From Bacteroidia bacterium (GTDB lineage: Bacteria; Bacteroidota; Bacteroidia; J057), in contig JAWPMV010000001.1 of the NCBI GenBank assembly GCA_033391075.1, positions 186,001 through 250,000 on the forward strand: a DNA stretch of 64,000 nt. The letters are read 5' to 3'. A program made the position numbers and the translations under genes. Shown one piece after another: positions 11,102-62,737 of this stretch (position 1 is its first letter; each line of letters starts with the position of its first letter). The notes beneath the pieces were generated by a model, which saw only the letters and a list, made by a program, of their open reading frames with translations, had not been told where the DNA came from and did not search any database.

Positions 11102-11629
11102 TTAATTGATCAGATATCGGATGCTAAAGGCTGCCTGATTTCCCGATAAACGTTTTTCCTGAATCAATTCGTAAGCGGGATTGATGTCAAAGGAAAAAGA
11201 GACATTGGATCGGGGATGCACATACTCAAAGCCAACCAAAGCGCTGACACCTGCAACATTATTTTGACCGGGAAATTCGTCAAGCAGAGCCGTAACTCCT
11301 GCATAGCCTCCAATACCGATATAGAGGTAAGAGCTGGACCTTCTTCCTAAGGCCAAATGTTGTTGGATATAGCCGATTCCTCTAAATCCTTCTTTATGGT
11401 AAACGACCATACCTTCAAAGGCTGTGTATTCAGCCATAAAGGCCTTATAGGTAATTCCTTTGGTAGAGCCATATCGTAGACCGATTGACTGTTGGTATTC
11501 CTGGGCTGAAATATTTCCTGAAAGGAGGAAAAGGATTAGACCGGATAAAAGGATGGATCTGGAAAATTGTCTGTTGATTGTGTGTAGGACCAATTTCTGA
11601 AAGTTGTTTCCTGGAGAATAAGAATTCAT
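11102..11629 (-). CDS. Small outer-membrane beta-barrel-like protein
   Basis: I place the start at ATG 11629, giving 175 residues; a longer form from 11701 would put 24 more residues ahead of the signal. A hydrophobic signal segment (SILLSGLILFLLSGNISAQ) is followed by ~130 residues of alternating beta-strand pattern: QSIGLRYGSTKGITYKAF, GIGYIQQHLALGRR, YLYIGIGGYAGV, VSALVGFEYV. The protein ends in FSIRYLIN. This is the look of a short 8-strand outer-membrane barrel common in Bacteroidota. No function can be assigned. Confidence 0.72.
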   Translation of the reverse strand: MNSYSPGNNFQKLVLHTINRQFSRSILLSGLILFLLSGNISAQEYQQSIGLRYGSTKGITYKAFMAEYTAFEGMVVYHKEGFRGIGYIQQHLALGRRSSSYLYIGIGGYAGVTALLDEFPGQNNVAGVSALVGFEYVHPRSNVSFSFDINPAYELIQEKRLSGNQAAFSIRYLIN

Positions 11630-11751
11630 CAATGATTTGGGTAATGTGAGCAAGTAAAGGATCGTTTTCAGGCTTAAAACCTTATGAAAACGCATACGCA
11701 TTCAATAGATTGTGTAGGAAGGTCTTTTTCTCCCTAATGCTTAGGGGCAAA

Positions 11752-12579
11752 TTAGTTTTTTGACTTCTCCAACTCTGCTTCTATATCCGCCAGAAAAATT
11801 TTGTCCACCTGATGAGTATAGGGATCATACATAGTCTTATGATTCAGATAAAGCTCATGGGCCAGCTTGAGCGATTCCTGGGTTTTCTGTGTTTGAGTTA
11901 GACCCTGATATGCCATAGCCTTGTAATAAGCATTTTCGGCACAATTATACTCCTGACTTTGTTTTTCAAAAGTGGCAAGCGCTTTTCCAAAGTTTTCTTC
12001 TTCCAAATACAAAACCCCTAAATGAAGATAATCATAGAGATCGGGAGCTCCTTGATAATTGGCTAAATGATCCTCCAGAATCTGAATGGCGATCTTTCGT
12101 TTATTCAGGCTCTTATAACATAGAGCTTTCGCAACCTTCAAATGATACATTCCATTTTGAGAGTAGGCAATATCGGTACGGGAAAGGCTCTCAAGTGTCT
12201 CGATATCTTCAATCGCTCCCTGATAGTCCCTGAAAAACTGAAATCGACACCAGGCTCTATAGCCCAAATGTTCAATCGGATTTAATTCAACCGCTTTGTC
12301 CATCAGGATTTTCCAATTGATGAAGTCCCCTGTTTTAAGGTAGGCTACAGATTTCCCCCGATAAGCATCGCTATACTCCGGGCATATTTCCAGGGCTTTG
12401 TCGTAGATGTCATGAAACTCTTTCCGGAGCTGGAAGAAGCTGGGGGCCTTCTCAAGATAATCACAGGCTTTGTAGCTGCAACTATCTCCTGCTGTAAGGA
12501 AGACGTCGCAGTTTCTCTGAGAAAATACCGAAACGGAGTTTATCAGGATTCCAGATAATAAAAGAAGTAAATGTTTCAT
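11752..12579 (-). CDS. Secreted tetratricopeptide-repeat protein
   Basis: A 275-residue protein with an N-terminal signal peptide (MKHLLLLLSGILINSVSVFSQ). Helical repeats follow that fit TPR units, for example FHDIYDKALEICPEYSDAYRGKSVAYLKTG and the pair around HLGVLYLEEENFGKALATFEKQ. TPRs mediate protein contacts, and the partner is unknown. Its ATG overlaps the stop of the upstream gene (ATGA at 12579-12576), so it is translationally coupled to the 170-residue lipoprotein and the two probably act together at the envelope. Confidence 0.8.
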   Translation of the reverse strand: MKHLLLLLSGILINSVSVFSQRNCDVFLTAGDSCSYKACDYLEKAPSFFQLRKEFHDIYDKALEICPEYSDAYRGKSVAYLKTGDFINWKILMDKAVELNPIEHLGYRAWCRFQFFRDYQGAIEDIETLESLSRTDIAYSQNGMYHLKVAKALCYKSLNKRKIAIQILEDHLANYQGAPDLYDYLHLGVLYLEEENFGKALATFEKQSQEYNCAENAYYKAMAYQGLTQTQKTQESLKLAHELYLNHKTMYDPYTHQVDKIFLADIEAELEKSKN

Positions 12580-52671: not shown

Positions 52672-52723
52672 AAATGCTAATGCCAGCTCACTTGGGTGGC
52701 AGGATTTGAACGGAAATTTAGTT

Positions 52724-53911
52724 ATGGCAAAAAAAAGAAAAATAGAAACGGATCTTGCTCATTTTGGAGAAGAGAGGAGTGAATATAGAGGGGCAGTTGT
52801 ACCACCGATTTTCCAGAATTCGCTCTTTACTTTTCAGGATTGGGAGGGAATAGATGAAGCATTTGATGATCGGGTGAATACGCCGATTTATAGTCGAGGT
52901 ATGAATCCTACCGTTGCTCTGGTGGAAAAGAAGATCGCTAGATTGGCAGGTGGAGGAAAGGCCAAGCTTTTTGCTTCAGGTATGGCAGCCATATCAGCAG
53001 GCGTTCTTCATTGTGTGAAAGCAGGGGATCATGTGATTGCCTTGAAGAATGTTTATGGCCCCGCCAATAACTTTATGAATGTCTACCTCCGGGAGAAAAT
53101 GGGACTTGAGCTCAGTTTTGTAAGTGGTGAGAAAGTCTCGGATTTCGAAGAGGCGATTCAGGAAAATACGGCTCTTATCTATTTGGAGAGTCCTTCTTCA
53201 GCTGTATTCAGTTTGCAGGATATTGCAGCTGTAGTGGCTCTGGCGAAAAAACATGGAATCAAGACCTTGATCGATAATACCTGGGCCAGTCCCATCTATC
53301 AAAAGCCTTTGGCTATGGGGGTAGATATCGAGATGCATTCCTGCTCCAAATATCTGGGCGGGCATAGTGATATAGTTGCCGGTGTCTTGATAGCCAGTGA
53401 GGAGATTATAGATGAAATCCAGGTCAAAGAATATGAATTGCTGGGGGCGAAAATGGCTCCTTTCGAAGCCTGGCTGATTCTCCGAAGTTTACGTACCCTT
53501 CCCATGCGTATGGAAAAGCATCAAGCCAATGCCTTGGAAGTCGCTCAATTCCTCCAAAAGCACCCCAAGGTCAAAAAAGTGCGTTATCCGGGTCTTCCCG
53601 ACTTTCCCCAATACGAACTGGCAAAAAAACAGATGAAAGGCTTTACCGGACTCATGGGCTTTCAACTGGATACAGAGGAGCTAGATGAAATCAAAGCCTT
53701 CTTCAATACACTGGAAGTCTTTCAAATTGGGGTAAGCTGGGGAGGACATGAAAGCCTTATCTATGCCCCTGCAATTTCCTATGTAAAAGAGCTAAGCGAA
53801 GAGCAATTTAAAGCCATGGGCATTTCCAAAGGTGATATGCGGATATCAGTAGGGCTGGAACATGTGGAGGATCTGATAGAAGATTTAGAGAGAGGCTTAG
53901 AAGCCTTTTAA
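52724..53911 (+). CDS. Cys/Met metabolism PLP-dependent enzyme (cystathionine beta-lyase / gamma-lyase type)
   Basis: 395 residues from ATG 52724; an ATG at 52706 adds six. Fold-type I PLP enzyme: PIYSRGMNPTVALVEKKIARL, LFASGMAAISAGVL, IDNTWASPIYQKPL, HSCSKYLGGHSDIVAGVL with the PLP lysine in SCSKYLGGH, and VGLEHVEDLIEDLERGL at the C-terminus. It cleaves a C-S bond in cystathionine, methionine or related amino acids; the exact branch cannot be told apart. It is the last gene of the amidohydrolase-carrier-antiporter operon, so it likely consumes a sulfur amino acid supplied by them. Confidence 0.9.
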   Translation: MAKKRKIETDLAHFGEERSEYRGAVVPPIFQNSLFTFQDWEGIDEAFDDRVNTPIYSRGMNPTVALVEKKIARLAGGGKAKLFASGMAAISAGVLHCVKAGDHVIALKNVYGPANNFMNVYLREKMGLELSFVSGEKVSDFEEAIQENTALIYLESPSSAVFSLQDIAAVVALAKKHGIKTLIDNTWASPIYQKPLAMGVDIEMHSCSKYLGGHSDIVAGVLIASEEIIDEIQVKEYELLGAKMAPFEAWLILRSLRTLPMRMEKHQANALEVAQFLQKHPKVKKVRYPGLPDFPQYELAKKQMKGFTGLMGFQLDTEELDEIKAFFNTLEVFQIGVSWGGHESLIYAPAISYVKELSEEQFKAMGISKGDMRISVGLEHVEDLIEDLERGLEAF

Positions 53912-53980
53912 GGTGTTCTGGTGTTCTAGTGCGCTTGTATTCTCGCTAATTCAATTAAAACACCAGAACACCAGAACACG
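53912..53980. repeat. Octamer hairpin element A
   Basis: Starts directly after the TAA of the PLP-enzyme gene. Left array of 8-mers: GGTGTTCT, GGTGTTCT, AGTGCGCT, TGTATTCT (53912-53943). Then a 13-nt centre, then the inverted array AAAACACC, AGAACACC, AGAACACG (53957-53980). The inner arms pair 15 of 15 (53913-53927 with 53965-53979). Shares TGTATTCTCG with element B. No ORF. Confidence 0.85.
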
Positions 53981-54025
53981 TCTTCCCCCTAACTCTCGTT
54001 TATCCCATAAAGTCCCAGCTTTCCC

Positions 54026-55676: not shown

Positions 55677-57089
55677 ATGAAAAACCTAATAATCTTGCTC
55701 CTCTTGCTTAGCCAGTTCGGATATCTACGATCTCAGACTTTGGAAGAATTATCCGTGAAACAGTTGCAGGAGGATTTTCAGGTGTTTCGAGGGCAATTGG
55801 AAAAAGTACATCCCGGATTGTACACCTACAGCAGTAAAGAGAAGCTGTATGGGATTTTTGAGGAGATTAAAGCGAGACTCAATGAGCCTATGTCTCAGAT
55901 AGATTTTTATAGAGCATTGCTTCCTATTCTTCGACCCATTGGAAATAATCACACAGAAATACAGGCACCAGATGCTTATAATGAACAATTGATAAATGAC
56001 TTGCCTCGTTTCCCTTTTCGGCTGTATCATGATAAGGCTAAACTTTACGTTCTGGAAGATTTAAGTCGGGAACAGGAAATTGGAGTAGGAGCTGTTATAA
56101 CTCGTATGAATGGGAGAGATATCCTGGAGATTTTCGAGGAGATGAAAGCCTTGTATAGAGTGGATGGCTTCAATGAGAGTAGTCCCAATTGGGCGCTTTC
56201 TGTAGTTTTTAGTCGAAAGTATGCGCAGTTTTTCGGTACTCCAACTAGCTATGATCTGGAATATGTGGATCAGAAAGGGAAAAAAAAGCGGACCACTATA
56301 TCCGGTATCCCACAGATTGAGTTGCAGGAAGCTGCTCAAAATTTAAAGACGCCCAATCTATTTGGGCATGGAGAGAAATATCAATTCAAGTTTATAGAAG
56401 ATGTGGCCTATTTGAAAATTGCTTCCTTTCAACCGGAAAAAGCCAGAACATATATCAGCTTTCTGAAGGACAGCTTTAAAAAAATCAAAGAAAAAGGCAG
56501 CCAAAAACTTATCCTCGACCTTCGCAACAATGGAGGAGGCTATCCGGAAGCGAGTTATAAATTGCTTGCCTATCTGATCAAGGAAAGCATTCGTCCTGCT
56601 ATACTGGAATATGCAAAGGTCGACAAAATCGAAGATGCCCAGTACTATGAAAAGGATTTTTTCTTCAAGCACTTTCATAAGCAAAACCTGATTTGGCGGA
56701 ATGGGAGGTATGAGGGGAAGGCGGCACCCAAAATACAGATAAAGCCTGAGGCGCTTGCGTTCGATGGTGAATTGATTGTCTTGATCAACGCTCGTAGTTC
56801 CTCTGCCACCGGCGAGCTGTTAGGCCAAATAAAAACCCATACAAATGCTAGCTTTATCGGTACAGAAGCTGGGGGAAATTGTGTAACGCAGGTCGCCAGT
56901 GATCTTCTGACCCTTGTACTTCCTCATTCTGGTATCAAAGTTACCCTCCCTGCCATCAAGTCCCTTATGCGCGTCAATTTTGAAAATACCGGACATGGCG
57001 TTCAGCCGGACATAGAAATTCTACCAAGCGTTCAGGATTTGTGGGAGGAAAGGGATGTGGTGTTGGAGAAAGCTCTGGAAAAGGGCTAA
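55677..57089 (+). CDS. Secreted S41-family (tail-specific) peptidase
   Basis: 470 residues from ATG 55677 with signal peptide MKNLIILLLLLSQFGYLRSQ; a longer start at 55611 would bury it. An N-terminal helical domain (FRGQLEKVHPGLYTYSSKEKL, IGNNHTEIQ) precedes a PDZ-like segment (VGAVITRMNGRDI) and the tail-specific protease core DLRNNGGGYPEASY, INARSSSATGELLGQIKTHTN with a serine nucleophile in the SSSATGE loop, and FIGTEAGGN. The catalytic lysine is not in the classical place. Role in cleavage of periplasmic or imported peptides is inferred. Its stop is followed after 1 nt by element B. Confidence 0.87.
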   Translation: MKNLIILLLLLSQFGYLRSQTLEELSVKQLQEDFQVFRGQLEKVHPGLYTYSSKEKLYGIFEEIKARLNEPMSQIDFYRALLPILRPIGNNHTEIQAPDAYNEQLINDLPRFPFRLYHDKAKLYVLEDLSREQEIGVGAVITRMNGRDILEIFEEMKALYRVDGFNESSPNWALSVVFSRKYAQFFGTPTSYDLEYVDQKGKKKRTTISGIPQIELQEAAQNLKTPNLFGHGEKYQFKFIEDVAYLKIASFQPEKARTYISFLKDSFKKIKEKGSQKLILDLRNNGGGYPEASYKLLAYLIKESIRPAILEYAKVDKIEDAQYYEKDFFFKHFHKQNLIWRNGRYEGKAAPKIQIKPEALAFDGELIVLINARSSSATGELLGQIKTHTNASFIGTEAGGNCVTQVASDLLTLVLPHSGIKVTLPAIKSLMRVNFENTGHGVQPDIEILPSVQDLWEERDVVLEKALEKG

Positions 57090-57090
57090 T

Positions 57091-57603
57091 GGTGTTAAGG
57101 TGTTCTTGTATTCTCGTGTTCTGGAATTTTTTTAGAGACCATGTTGTTATATGTAAATCATATGGGGACTAATAAGAAAAACACCTATATGCTATGGCAA
57201 GTATTAAAAGATTTGAAGAATTGGAGTGCTGGAGATCCGCAAGAATGTTAACGAAGGAAATCTACTTGATTTCAAATAAAGGAAAGCTTAGCAAAGATTT
57301 CGAAATAAAAAATCAACTAAGATCCGCAGCTCTTTCTCTCATGAATAATATAGCGGAAGGCTTTGGTAGGTATAGCGATAAAGAATTCATTAGATTTTTA
57401 AATGTTGCTCAAAGCTCTGGTTTAGAAGTTCAGAGTATGCTGTATCTAGTGGAGGATTTGCATTACCTAAACCAGGATGAGCTAGAAAGTTTAAGGAAAG
57501 AGGTCGATAAAACCATATCGTTGACATTGGGGCTATTACGGTATATAAACAACAAGTAAATAATCCCCTCCAGAACACCAGAACACCAGAACACCAGAAC
57601 ACC
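57091..57603. mobile_element. Octamer-flanked element B carrying a four-helix-bundle (S23/IVP) gene
   Basis: Left end: GGTGTTAA, GGTGTTCT, TGTATTCT, CGTGTTCT, GG (57091-57124). Right end: four perfect AGAACACC copies (57572-57603). The two ends are inverted repeats, 28 of 33 positions paired. The loop of ~450 nt encodes only the four-helix-bundle protein. It fills the gap between two convergent genes, 1 nt after one stop and 7 nt before the other. Whether it moves is not shown; architecture is that of a 23S rRNA intervening sequence. Confidence 0.65.
57194..57559 (+). CDS. Four helix bundle protein (23S rRNA intervening-sequence / S23 family)
   Basis: 121 residues. Begins MASIKRFEELECWRSARMLTK and has the family marks FEIKNQLRSAALSLMNNIAEGFGR, EFIRFLNVAQSSGLEVQSMLYL and a closing helix. 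These proteins form pentameric helical bundles with a basic surface; they are encoded inside 23S rRNA intervening sequences in Leptospira and Coxiella, and Avd of diversity-generating retroelements is a relative. The role here is unknown. It lies alone inside inverted octamer arrays (element B) and is not near rRNA or a reverse transcriptase. Confidence 0.9.
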   Translation: MASIKRFEELECWRSARMLTKEIYLISNKGKLSKDFEIKNQLRSAALSLMNNIAEGFGRYSDKEFIRFLNVAQSSGLEVQSMLYLVEDLHYLNQDELESLRKEVDKTISLTLGLLRYINNK

Positions 57604-57610
57604 TCCCTCT

Positions 57611-58468
57611 TTACCCTTCCATAAACCTATGAATCGCCGCAAAGTCTAATCTACCCAATCCCTGCTTTTTTGCCTGTGCATAAATCTCCTTAGCCACATT
57701 GGCCATCGGAAGGGGTTGATTCTCTTCATAGGCAGAGAGAGCTGCTAGTTGAAGATCTTTATGCATAAGTTCGAGGGGAAATTGAACCTCATAATCGTTC
57801 TTGCGGATCATCTCAGCTTTGAATTTGGTGAAGGGAGCGGATACCACCAGATTTGGGAGTGTATTTAGGAGGAAGTCTTTATCCAGACCCATCTTTTCGC
57901 CCAATAAAACGGTCTCTGAAAAAATAAGCATGGATTGAGCGAGCAGGGAATTGACCAGCATTTTGAAGGAAGCGCCTTTGCCTGATTCACCTATATGAAT
58001 GACTTTCTTCCCCATTTGCAGGAGCATGGGTTCTATTTCCTTTATTTCAGCTTCTTCTCCTCCTGCGAAAAATACCAGTTCGGCATTTTCTGCATGTGGC
58101 TTTGTGCCAGCTACAGGAGCATCAATAAAGAGCATCCCGGCTTCCTCGGCAGCCTCTTTTGCTTTGGATGAAAAGGAAGGGTTTACGGTAGAGCAATCGA
58201 TCCATCTTGCACCCCTCTTCATTTGGGATAATCCTCCGCTTTCACCAAGCATCACGGATTCTACTACCTCTGGATTGGAAAGCATGCTGATTACCGTATC
58301 AGCTTCTTGAACAGCTTCTGCGATGTTTTGCGCCCTCTTTGCTCCCAGGGCTTCCAATTCTTTGGCAGGTCCTTCCGAACGATTGTAAACGATGAGATCC
58401 TGTCCCTGCTTGAGCAGATTTTTTGCCATGCGGCTGCCCATGATTCCGAGTCCGATAAATGCGATCAT
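57611..58468 (-). CDS. NAD(P)-dependent beta-hydroxyacid dehydrogenase (3-hydroxyisobutyrate dehydrogenase / GLYR1-like)
   Basis: 285 residues. The NAD(P) site MIAFIGLGIMGSRMAKNLL is at the N-terminus, followed by VYNRSEGPAKEL (basic residue favouring NADPH). The substrate loop DCSTVNPSFSSKAKE and AGTKPHAENAELVFFAGG, and the catalytic-lysine helix GKGASFKMLVNSLLAQSM, are typical. Reduces or oxidises a 3-hydroxy acid or semialdehyde such as succinate semialdehyde or 3-hydroxyisobutyrate. A link to mmsA at 40613 through valine catabolism is possible, but not by proximity. It lies between elements B and C. Confidence 0.92.
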   Translation of the reverse strand: MIAFIGLGIMGSRMAKNLLKQGQDLIVYNRSEGPAKELEALGAKRAQNIAEAVQEADTVISMLSNPEVVESVMLGESGGLSQMKRGARWIDCSTVNPSFSSKAKEAAEEAGMLFIDAPVAGTKPHAENAELVFFAGGEEAEIKEIEPMLLQMGKKVIHIGESGKGASFKMLVNSLLAQSMLIFSETVLLGEKMGLDKDFLLNTLPNLVVSAPFTKFKAEMIRKNDYEVQFPLELMHKDLQLAALSAYEENQPLPMANVAKEIYAQAKKQGLGRLDFAAIHRFMEG

Positions 58469-58476
58469 GATAAAGA

Positions 58477-58568
58477 GGTGTTATAGTGTTAGAGTGTTGT
58501 AGTGTTAGAGGGATTTAGTGAGTTTGGGAGCTTAGGCCTTTACTCAAATACCCTAAAACACAAACACG
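58477..58568. repeat. Octamer hairpin element C (degenerate)
   Basis: Left array: GGTGTTAT, AGTGTTAG, AGTGTTGT, AGTGTTAG, AGGGATTT, AGTGAGTT (58477-58524), then a centre with GGCC, then a right array whose complement reads CGTGTTTG, TGTTTTAG, GGTATTTG (58545-58568). The 8-nt period is kept while sequence decays. It lies upstream of the dehydrogenase start at 58468 and 77 nt past the AraC stop at 58646. No ORF. Confidence 0.65.
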
Positions 58569-62658: not shown

Positions 62659-62737
62659 AGTGCTCAAGTGTTATGGTGTTTTAGTGTTATAGTTGGAATC
62701 TATTTTTCAAACTTCCGCACTAAAACACTACAACACT
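62659..62737. repeat. Octamer hairpin element D
   Basis: Left array: AGTGCTCA, AGTGTTAT, GGTGTTTT, AGTGTTAT, AGTTGGAA (62659-62698). Right array: TCCGCACT, AAAACACT, ACAACACT (62714-62737), the complement of AGTGTTGT, AGTGTTTT, AGTGCGGA. Begins 3 nt after the ALDH stop and ends 4 nt before the stop of the convergent secreted-protein gene, so it fills the gap exactly and could end transcription from both sides. No ORF. Confidence 0.8.

Follow-up and report, generated by a model that had tools for sequence, protein, structure and literature searches.

An IVP gene between inverted octamer arrays outside rRNA: a putative REPIN-like mobile element without a recognised transposase

We propose that positions 57091-57603 of the window, the 64,000-nucleotide stretch of a Bacteroidia genome analysed here, form one mobile unit in which an IVP gene lies between inverted arrays of the repeat unit of its own protein subfamily. 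On sequence evidence alone, we put the probability of this reading at about 0.78; no same-genus relative of the source genome turned up, and the window's own site is therefore without a comparison of filled and empty alleles. On this reading, the element is an IVP mobile element outside rRNA, REPIN-like with a master gene and without a recognised transposase.

The window element and the arrays around other IVP genes

The features of the element are listed in Table 1. The octamers of the left arm read GGTGTTAA, GGTGTTCT, TGTATTCT and CGTGTTCT in the sequence. A repeat search found the two 35-nt arms to be 86% complementary, spaced 443 nt apart and the longest inverted repeat in the 1-kb region. 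Upstream, the stop codon of an S41 gene ends at 57089, and downstream a convergent NAD-binding dehydrogenase gene ends at 57611, 7 nt beyond the right arm; these family names come from a Pfam scan of six neighbour genes, among which no reverse transcriptase was found. The IVP gene is the sole ORF of at least 80 aa between the arms, and its protein matched PF05635 (E = 2.5e-30, 105.3 bits, curated cut-off 33.8) and TIGR02436 (96.4 bits, cut-off 24). No transposase domain was found in the element by a profile search, which gave PF05635 alone at E values up to 0.001. In the predicted RNA fold of 57087-57607, the arms are paired in both the minimum-energy and the centroid structures (z = -4.98). 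The element lies outside any 23S rRNA gene, as its neighbours are the S41 and dehydrogenase genes and an Rfam scan of the window yielded one tRNA only. Every detail of the layout in the original prediction, which was made from the sequence alone (a 513-bp unit with octamer arms, a sole 121-residue IVP gene and spacings of 1 and 7 nt), holds, and its description as an IVP-bearing stem-loop element outside rRNA is borne out by the ORF, the inverted arms and the protein-coding neighbours.

Table 1. Coordinates of the IVP element and of related octamer features in the window
Feature	Position	Strand	Description
Whole IVP element	57091..57603	+	513 bp: left octamer array, IVP gene, inverted right array
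Left arm	57091..57125	+	Four imperfect GTGTTNNN octamers, 1 nt past the S41 stop codon
IVP gene	57194..57559	+	121 aa, S23/four-helix bundle, PF05635 and TIGR02436
Right arm	57569..57603	-	Four perfect minus-strand octamers, AGAACACC x4 at 57572-57603
Gene-less octamer hairpin	53913..53981		GTGTTCTG arms; directly behind the stop of gene 52706-53911
Lone octamer array	58478..58506	+	GTGTTATA/GTGTTAGA/GTGTTGTA; no inverted partner within 120 nt
Gene-less octamer hairpin	62668..62737		GTGTTATG/GTGTTTTA arms

The AlphaFold model of the window IVP is a four-helix bundle (mean pLDDT 96.4), whose Foldseek neighbours are 2gsc (Xcc0516) and 2rld, followed by Avd. The S23p protein of Xanthomonas campestris is described as a toroidal homopentamer (PMC4990558, available in part). 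Invariant residues among 47 sequences include W13, R17, Q41, N52-F57, S75, E78, Y84 and D88, and in our judgement, which is untested, the IVP has no nuclease motif. The dN/dS ratio was 0.05-0.30 in seven of ten IVP pairs and zero, with no replacement, in one, the remaining two being saturated; by this estimate, purifying selection acts on the protein in the pairs compared. The window protein had no match in phage records at an E value of 1e-3.

Both PF05635 genes of the source genome (2/2) lie inside inverted arrays of the GTGTTNNN octamer, and genes of this family occur in 42 of 60 genomes (the source genome and 59 relatives), at 0-16 copies each. Flanks were scored by local alignment of the 150 nt upstream with the reverse complement of the 150 nt downstream. 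The first set held 75 IVP genes, 73 of them distinct, made up of the two from the source genome and of relatives' matches taken roughly by E-value rather than as a full list; the 590 control ORFs were drawn from the relatives' loci, none from the source genome. Inverted flanks scored at least 12 at 57 of the 75 IVP genes versus 26 of the 590 controls, and at least 18 at 29/75 versus 12/590; some of the controls with high scores are themselves small orphan genes, similarly placed. When the same IVP flanks were aligned in direct or reversed orientation, a score of 12 was reached at only 7/75 and 3/75, respectively. Counting against the association, 18 of the 73 distinct genes had no inverted flank at the threshold.

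A second set was assembled by scanning named genomes by protein similarity alone, giving 80 loci with IVPs 42-58% identical to that of the window, of which 78 were usable after two were dropped for short flanks. Here, scores of at least 12 were obtained at 56 of the 78 loci for inverted flanks, 11 for direct and seven for reversed ones, whereas 22 of the 78 had no inverted flank at the threshold, which again counts against. Because 47 of these loci have neighbour genes in common with others (25 lie at metH-metF; 24 loci share none), they are not all independent; inverted flanks were found at 35 of the 47 neighbour-sharing loci and 21 of the 31 others, and at 38/53 when the 25 metH-metF copies were left out. 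Strict arrays, defined as two exact GTGTT cores 8 nt apart, lay upstream on the coding strand at 34/78 loci (wrong strand, 3) and downstream on the opposite strand at 28/78 (wrong strand, 5). They were correctly oriented on both sides at 19/78, and at 34/78 none was found at this strictness. Their density within the same named loci was 80 in 23.4 kb of flank versus 12 in 330 kb elsewhere. Inverted flanks were found in several bacterial phyla, the record titles naming Bacteroidota, Balneolaceae, Omnitrophota, Anaerolineales, Aminicenantes and Gracilibacteria among others, and the loci titled Planctomycetota, WOR-3 and Kiritimatiellales scored below the threshold.

Filled and empty sites and the insertion position

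The window IVP matched 19 plasmid records, 13 of them cyanobacterial, and the plasmid relatives of Xcc0516 are mostly cyanobacterial. Nineteen plasmid loci were read, 11 from the window-IVP matches and eight from the Xcc0516 relatives, with near-duplicates among them (L324 and L319; L329 and L328). The flank score was at least 12 at 12 of the 19, with heptamer-type arms such as TAGGGAG and GGGAACA; the other seven had no inverted flank at this threshold, which counts against, and the right arm is only about 11-12 nt long in L318, L322, L328 and L329.

In cyanobacterial plasmid backbones that are 97-98% identical, a unit of about 420 bp is present or absent exactly after a stop codon. A site in a tra operon is filled in three records (Trichormus twice, and Scytonema), whereas six records, 97-98% identical, cover 86% of the query in two pieces. 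In three of these six, which were read, the empty interval is 13 bp, TTAACAAATAATT or TTAACAAATAAAT, and the filled allele retains this 13-bp stretch behind the element. At the same site, plasmid pE of Nostoc C052 has 132 bp with a gene-less, one-sided heptamer array (L335). At a TraM site, C052 carries the unit (496 bp) and C057 has 52 bp, and in ATCC 53789 the interval consists of 260 bp with gene-less inverted arrays (L337, a Nostoc plasmid). The cas10-cmr3 interval is filled in Picosynechococcus 7003 (428 bp) versus 12 bp in strain 7002, with a lower flank identity of 83-93%. At a fourth site, two plasmids carry the unit (420 bp) and a third has 3 bp; this third plasmid bears another IVP unit one gene on, at a fifth site that is empty in the other two (an overlap or 3 bp). 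The Trichormus element and the elements of the same IVP subfamily at other, unrelated plasmid sites are similar only within the element (query 1234-1655 of 3001, 78-83%). Target duplications of 3-5 bp are possible at the plasmid junctions and remain ambiguous owing to the repeats. These comparisons show that gene and arrays are gained or lost together. As a separate observation, an IVP gene lies between cas6 and cas4 of type I-D operons in a Pseudanabaena plasmid (L315) and an Anabaena sp. 90 plasmid (L325); in L315 the gene is flanked on either side by long AAAAGCT/AAAAGCC heptamer arrays that are direct and not inverted, which counts against.

On chromosomes, the interval between metH and metF was compared. 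Matches to metF occurred in 151 of 194 genomes, and metH was adjacent in 14 of the 30 metF loci fetched (both genes in the named locus L244 carry these names by NCBIfam). Two of the 14 intervals are filled, one of them a twin of L244, ten are short and without an IVP (0-107 bp), and two contain other sequence (479 and 1248 bp). A gene-less remnant with a single octamer arm was found in L298 (genome G123). The intervals in L284 (43 bp) and L285 (18 bp) are empty, although their genus code is the same as that of the filled genome G178. Across 25 named filled loci, IVP identity tracks metH/metF identity (Mantel r = 0.587, 0/999), so that the copy at metH-metF is old and looks mostly vertical, and this counts against mobility.

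The original prediction had left two branches, a mobile DNA element or a processed RNA, and the former gains support from the filled and empty sites at these other loci. It had also stated that the link would be accidental if the arrays were present without the gene in every relative at the locus, or if IVP genes elsewhere lacked them. Neither is the case in the comparisons available: the octamer array is absent from nine of the ten short gene-less metH-metF intervals, the empty plasmid sites examined, which are orthologous to filled sites other than the window's, have neither gene nor arrays, and the second IVP gene of the source genome and most others examined have arrays.

The upstream neighbour was co-directional for 122 of 141 IVP genes versus 376 of 536 controls (p = 6e-5), and both neighbours were co-directional for 111/141 versus 279/536. 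Relative to the upstream stop codon, the first base of the arm lay at -10 to 30 nt in 67 of 92 cases, with a median of 4.5 nt. The 25 metH-metF copies are part of these sets (141 and 92), whose members are thus not all independent. In these samples, the unit usually sits in sense orientation immediately after the upstream stop codon, a position that leaves the neighbours intact and in which the IVP gene can ride the upstream transcript.

Array motif, protein phylogeny and dispersed arrays

The repeat unit of the arms varies between elements, with a period of 7 or 8. In the first set, identity was 0.605 at lag 7 and 0.602 at lag 14 versus 0.22-0.29 at most other lags, and the value of 0.38 at lag 8 stems from an octamer minority; the second set, which represents the window's subfamily, has an octamer unit (lag-8 identity 0.655). 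Between genomes, the mean arm score was 5.3 at protein similarities below 0.25 and 12.6 in five pairs above 0.7, whereas the opposite-strand score stayed flat at 4.4-5.9 at all similarities (Mantel test, correct strand, 0/500). The period requires 12 changes on the protein tree versus about 33 when shuffled, none of 500 shuffles being as low; this tree was a quick one from few columns, with L264 omitted from the protein alignment. The first-set IVP closest to that of the window (L116) comes from a different taxonomic family, and its arms also consist of GTGTTNNN. Across the genomes compared, array motif, strand and period follow the IVP phylogeny. None of 53 within-genome IVP pairs exceeded a similarity of 0.69, which indicates that the gene-bearing copies are diverse within a genome while the arrays multiply. 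The number of units per arm (median 4.4) has a broad spread and is by itself no evidence for a correspondence with five subunits.

Own arms pair better with each other than with swapped arms (22.2 versus 16.2), and 17 of 19 beat the mean of the swapped arms, which raises the possibility that the system acts mainly at the RNA level: the arms would pair in the mRNA, RNase III would cut the stem and release the IVP message from that of its neighbours, in the manner of 23S rRNA intervening sequences, and the arrays would maintain a stem rather than protein sites. The strongly negative z-score of the predicted fold with its paired arms and the sense insertion after stop codons within operons agree with this account, as does the IVS of Coxiella burnetii, an RNase III substrate with tandem heptamers at the 5' end (PMC4990558, of which part was available). 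However, a tandem 7-8-mer with a motif that follows the protein is not required for a stem, and the arrays of some elements are short, one-sided or direct. The own arm was the best partner in only 2 of the 19, so that a stem kept by strict pairing of variable positions was rejected. We regard an explanation mainly at the RNA level as possible though rather unlikely; it is compatible with DNA mobility. Excision from RNA in itself is plausible and untested, resting on the predicted fold and by analogy on the RNase III result for the Coxiella 23S IVS.

In the source genome (9.49 Mb), the pattern (GTGTTNNN)2GTGTT has 243 matches versus 4 for the reversed pattern. Three blocks totalling 464 kb were read for arrays and contained 54 GTGTT/AACAC arrays of at least two units versus 1 in first-order Markov shuffles; 50 of the 54 are intergenic, although the blocks are 87-91% coding. 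Of 16 neighbouring pairs at most 120 nt apart, 15 are convergent (GTGTT...AACAC), none divergent and one tandem. The 15 convergent hairpins have loops of 7-89 nt, and ten of them stand behind a plus-strand gene, nine of these beginning 1-12 nt after the stop codon; the other five comprise four between divergent genes and one that overlaps a gene. A GAG/GAA triplet occurs beyond the outer end of 20 of the 54 arrays but at none of the 112 internal or 54 loop-side positions, a bias by which the hairpins look like units with defined ends and not like free slippage. The arms share their variable-triplet class in 13 of 18 pairs, where six are expected. Thus, the carrier genome is scattered with arrays of this motif that lack the gene.

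This dispersal is not common to carriers: among the 59 relatives, the strict octamer pattern had 1-3 matches in six and none in 53, so that genome-wide arrays as a shared trait were rejected for this octamer, strong amplification being seen only in the source genome, which counts against. In 48 elements from other genomes (source genome excluded), arm k-mers recurred at a rate of 23.5 per Mb in the rest of the own genome versus 5.9 per Mb in other genomes; the own-genome rate was the higher in 23 of the 48, and the 25 without enrichment count against. Two arrays of the source genome stand apart. One octamer pair (C1:266829-267144) has an unusual 243-nt loop, arms of differing triplet classes and extra single units inside; a decayed IVP in this loop (C1:266861-267104) was considered and not supported, as the window IVP gave no tblastn match there. 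The other is a hairpin (C1:1913037-1913101) with eight minus-strand GTGTTGTA units in one arm versus three in the other, and this one-sided arm is a recent expansion.

Dispersed cognate arrays beside stop codons would also be expected of a resident regulator, an IVP that binds arrays by many genes (as terminators or in mRNA stability or translation) and whose own flanks are autoregulatory. The purifying selection on the IVP and the long vertical retention at metH-metF (Mantel r = 0.587, 0/999) are in keeping with such a role; however, the distribution is patchy at 0-16 copies per genome, metH-metF is empty in two species and filled in another of the same genus, the neighbours are varied and include tra and cas operons, and regulation does not need mirror-oriented arrays on both sides. 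We therefore consider a resident regulator unlikely. Very unlikely, in our estimation, is that the arrays are pre-existing host repeats on which IVP genes land, hairpins being their targets. Gene-less arrays do number in the hundreds in the source genome and occur at sites filled in relatives (L335, L337), but the empty sites are array-free at four plasmid loci and in nine of ten short metH-metF intervals, the motif follows the protein clade across genomes, and most relatives with an octamer-type IVP lack genome-wide arrays. That common intergenic short repeats merely happen to flank IVP genes can practically be ruled out, since, frequent as arrays are in the source genome, chance pairing of simple repeats is excluded by the shuffles and by the direct, reversed and opposite-strand controls, and the control genes and the empty plasmid sites likewise refute an accidental link.

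Relation to known systems and proposed model

Several features of the mobile-unit reading recall REPIN/RAYT systems, in which one gene accompanies many short, gene-less extragenic hairpins of a cognate repeat and the repeat type follows the protein type. Both traits have their counterpart here, and extragenic gene-less hairpins of the cognate repeat are present in the source genome. In contrast to RAYTs, the IVP element has no Y1 (HUH) transposase, its protein being a four-helix bundle, and its repeat is a tandem 7-8-mer array instead of a palindrome with a tetranucleotide tag. No Y1/HUH transposase is linked to the repeats: the lone Y1_Tnp of the source genome, at C1:1090665, lies outside both IVP elements, and a RAYT/Y1 transposase as driver was therefore rejected.

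The IVS of Coxiella, of about 430 nt, likewise has a terminal inverted repeat with a gene of this protein family in its loop. Its terminal stem measures 28 bp, the S23 ORF is preceded by three tandem GACAGAT heptamers, and RNase III cuts the IVS; the ORF is described as decaying, its protein probably not being made according to the authors (PMC4990558, as far as its text was available). The window element differs in lying between protein genes and not in rRNA, in having cognate tandem arrays as arms on both sides with gene-less copies dispersed, and in an IVP under purifying selection as opposed to a decaying ORF. Since the element has no Y1 transposase and is not in rRNA, it is a member neither of REPIN/RAYT nor of the 23S IVSs; the nearest working analogy is RAYT/REPIN, and the nearest relatives by protein are the 23S IVSs. 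The same fold is found in Avd of diversity-generating retroelements (4dwl, 8ub7; Foldseek TM 0.75-0.77 by query), a ribonucleoprotein component by entry title, but the identity is only 8-10%, and none of the six neighbours identified around the window gene is a reverse transcriptase.

Heptamer repeats have been reported from several groups. In the available part of PMC4692102, two Xanthomonas species have 186 and 183 GGGAATC arrays, the majority with four units, and 70 and 75 convergent pairs, 83% being at the same place in the second species; the arrays are generally not associated with insertion sequences, and GGGGA(C/T)T heptamers are described in Nostoc. TAACTGA heptamers are reported from Beggiatoaceae, cyanobacteria and five Bacteroidetes, with no evident transfer mechanism in the text available (PMC4679880). 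Like the arrays studied here, all of these are tandem 7-mers with a fixed core and variable positions, mostly intergenic, and the Xanthomonas arrays are mostly of four units and often in convergent pairs. They differ in that no attached gene or mobility mechanism is given in the accessible text, whereas the arrays here bracket IVP genes, and in that the unit is 8 nt in the window's subfamily. One locus from the source genome's family (L055) has TAACTGA once in one arm. Xcc0516 presumably comes from the same strain as the Xanthomonas GGGAATC work, and cyanobacterial STRRs are tandem heptanucleotide repeats; the flanks of cyanobacterial IVPs have 7-nt units, which may correspond to the named STRR classes. 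The text of PMC4692102, as far as available, mentions neither S23 nor four helix nor xcc0516. A link between IVP genes and such arrays was not found in titles and abstracts of the open-licence literature among the matches listed, and an earlier description elsewhere is not excluded.

The array-flanked architecture may be wider than IVP. Genes of the GxxExxY family (PF13366, PDDEXK_3; L143-L172, L094:13224-13617 and L135:11231-11636) had inverted flanks at 17 of 29 usable loci, direct ones at eight and reversed ones at two, with CACAGAG/CGCAGAG-like arms; these units are possibly a sister element with a nuclease-fold protein. DUF559 genes (PF04480; L173-L202 and L094:14440-14770) had C-rich flanks that were inverted in 8/22 and direct in 10/22, so that the repeats are palindromic and not an inverted pair, and inverted flanks were rejected as a mark of this family. 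Usable loci numbered 29/30 for GxxExxY and 22/30 for DUF559, the rest lacking a flank. Several DUF559 matches are embedded in much longer open frames (860-1890 codons), which looks like in-frame insertion into a host gene. Two clusters of orphan genes were also seen, one with three IVPs, a GxxExxY and a DUF559 gene within 7 kb (G029:C2:45151-51734, in L094) and one with three IVPs and a DUF559 gene within 8 kb (G049:C1:116338-123580, in L087). In L093, a gene of 359 aa starting MGELSTYKTLEEKEKIF (11164-12244 in minus-strand coordinates) lies between GTATTGA arrays with a flank score of 32; these resemble the arrays of the neighbouring IVP, as if the gene were cargo.

For the mobile unit we propose, an IVP oligomer, a pentamer in the solved homologue, would recognise the array, perhaps with each subunit taking one single-stranded unit of 7-8 nt, and would bring the two ends of the element together; these steps are inferred, and there are no binding data. 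By analogy with RAYT/REPIN, the gene-bearing copy would be the master and the short-loop hairpins its miniature copies. Cutting and joining might be performed by host enzymes at the stem-loops, a speculative step invoked because the IVP has no known nuclease fold. Equally speculatively, RNase III may cut the same stem in RNA, as it does in 23S IVSs, so that the insertion would be concealed from the host. In its widest form, the model is a class without a recognised transposase, in which a pentameric ring protein recognises 7-8-nt arrays and spreads itself and the arrays behind stop codons, with 23S IVSs as a special habitat and the heptamers of cyanobacteria, Xanthomonas and Beggiatoaceae as gene-less debris; this remains a tentative proposal with the odds somewhat against it.

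S23/IVP proteins are described as lacking a known function, and 23S intervening sequences as being of unclear origin (PMC4990558, in the part available), and no spread mechanism is described for the heptamer families of cyanobacteria, Xanthomonas and Beggiatoaceae in the available text of PMC4692102 and PMC4679880. Proteins of solved structure and unassigned function (2gsc, 2rld) are now tied to the heptamer-repeat problem, and the two problems are joined because IVP genes lie between arrays, the motif follows the clade, and gene and arrays come and go as a unit. IVP and array constitute a directly testable protein-target pair, and the near-identical plasmids with and without the element allow its movement to be measured. 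If the model is true, 23S IVSs and the unexplained heptamer repeats would be unified under one class of IVP-driven elements.
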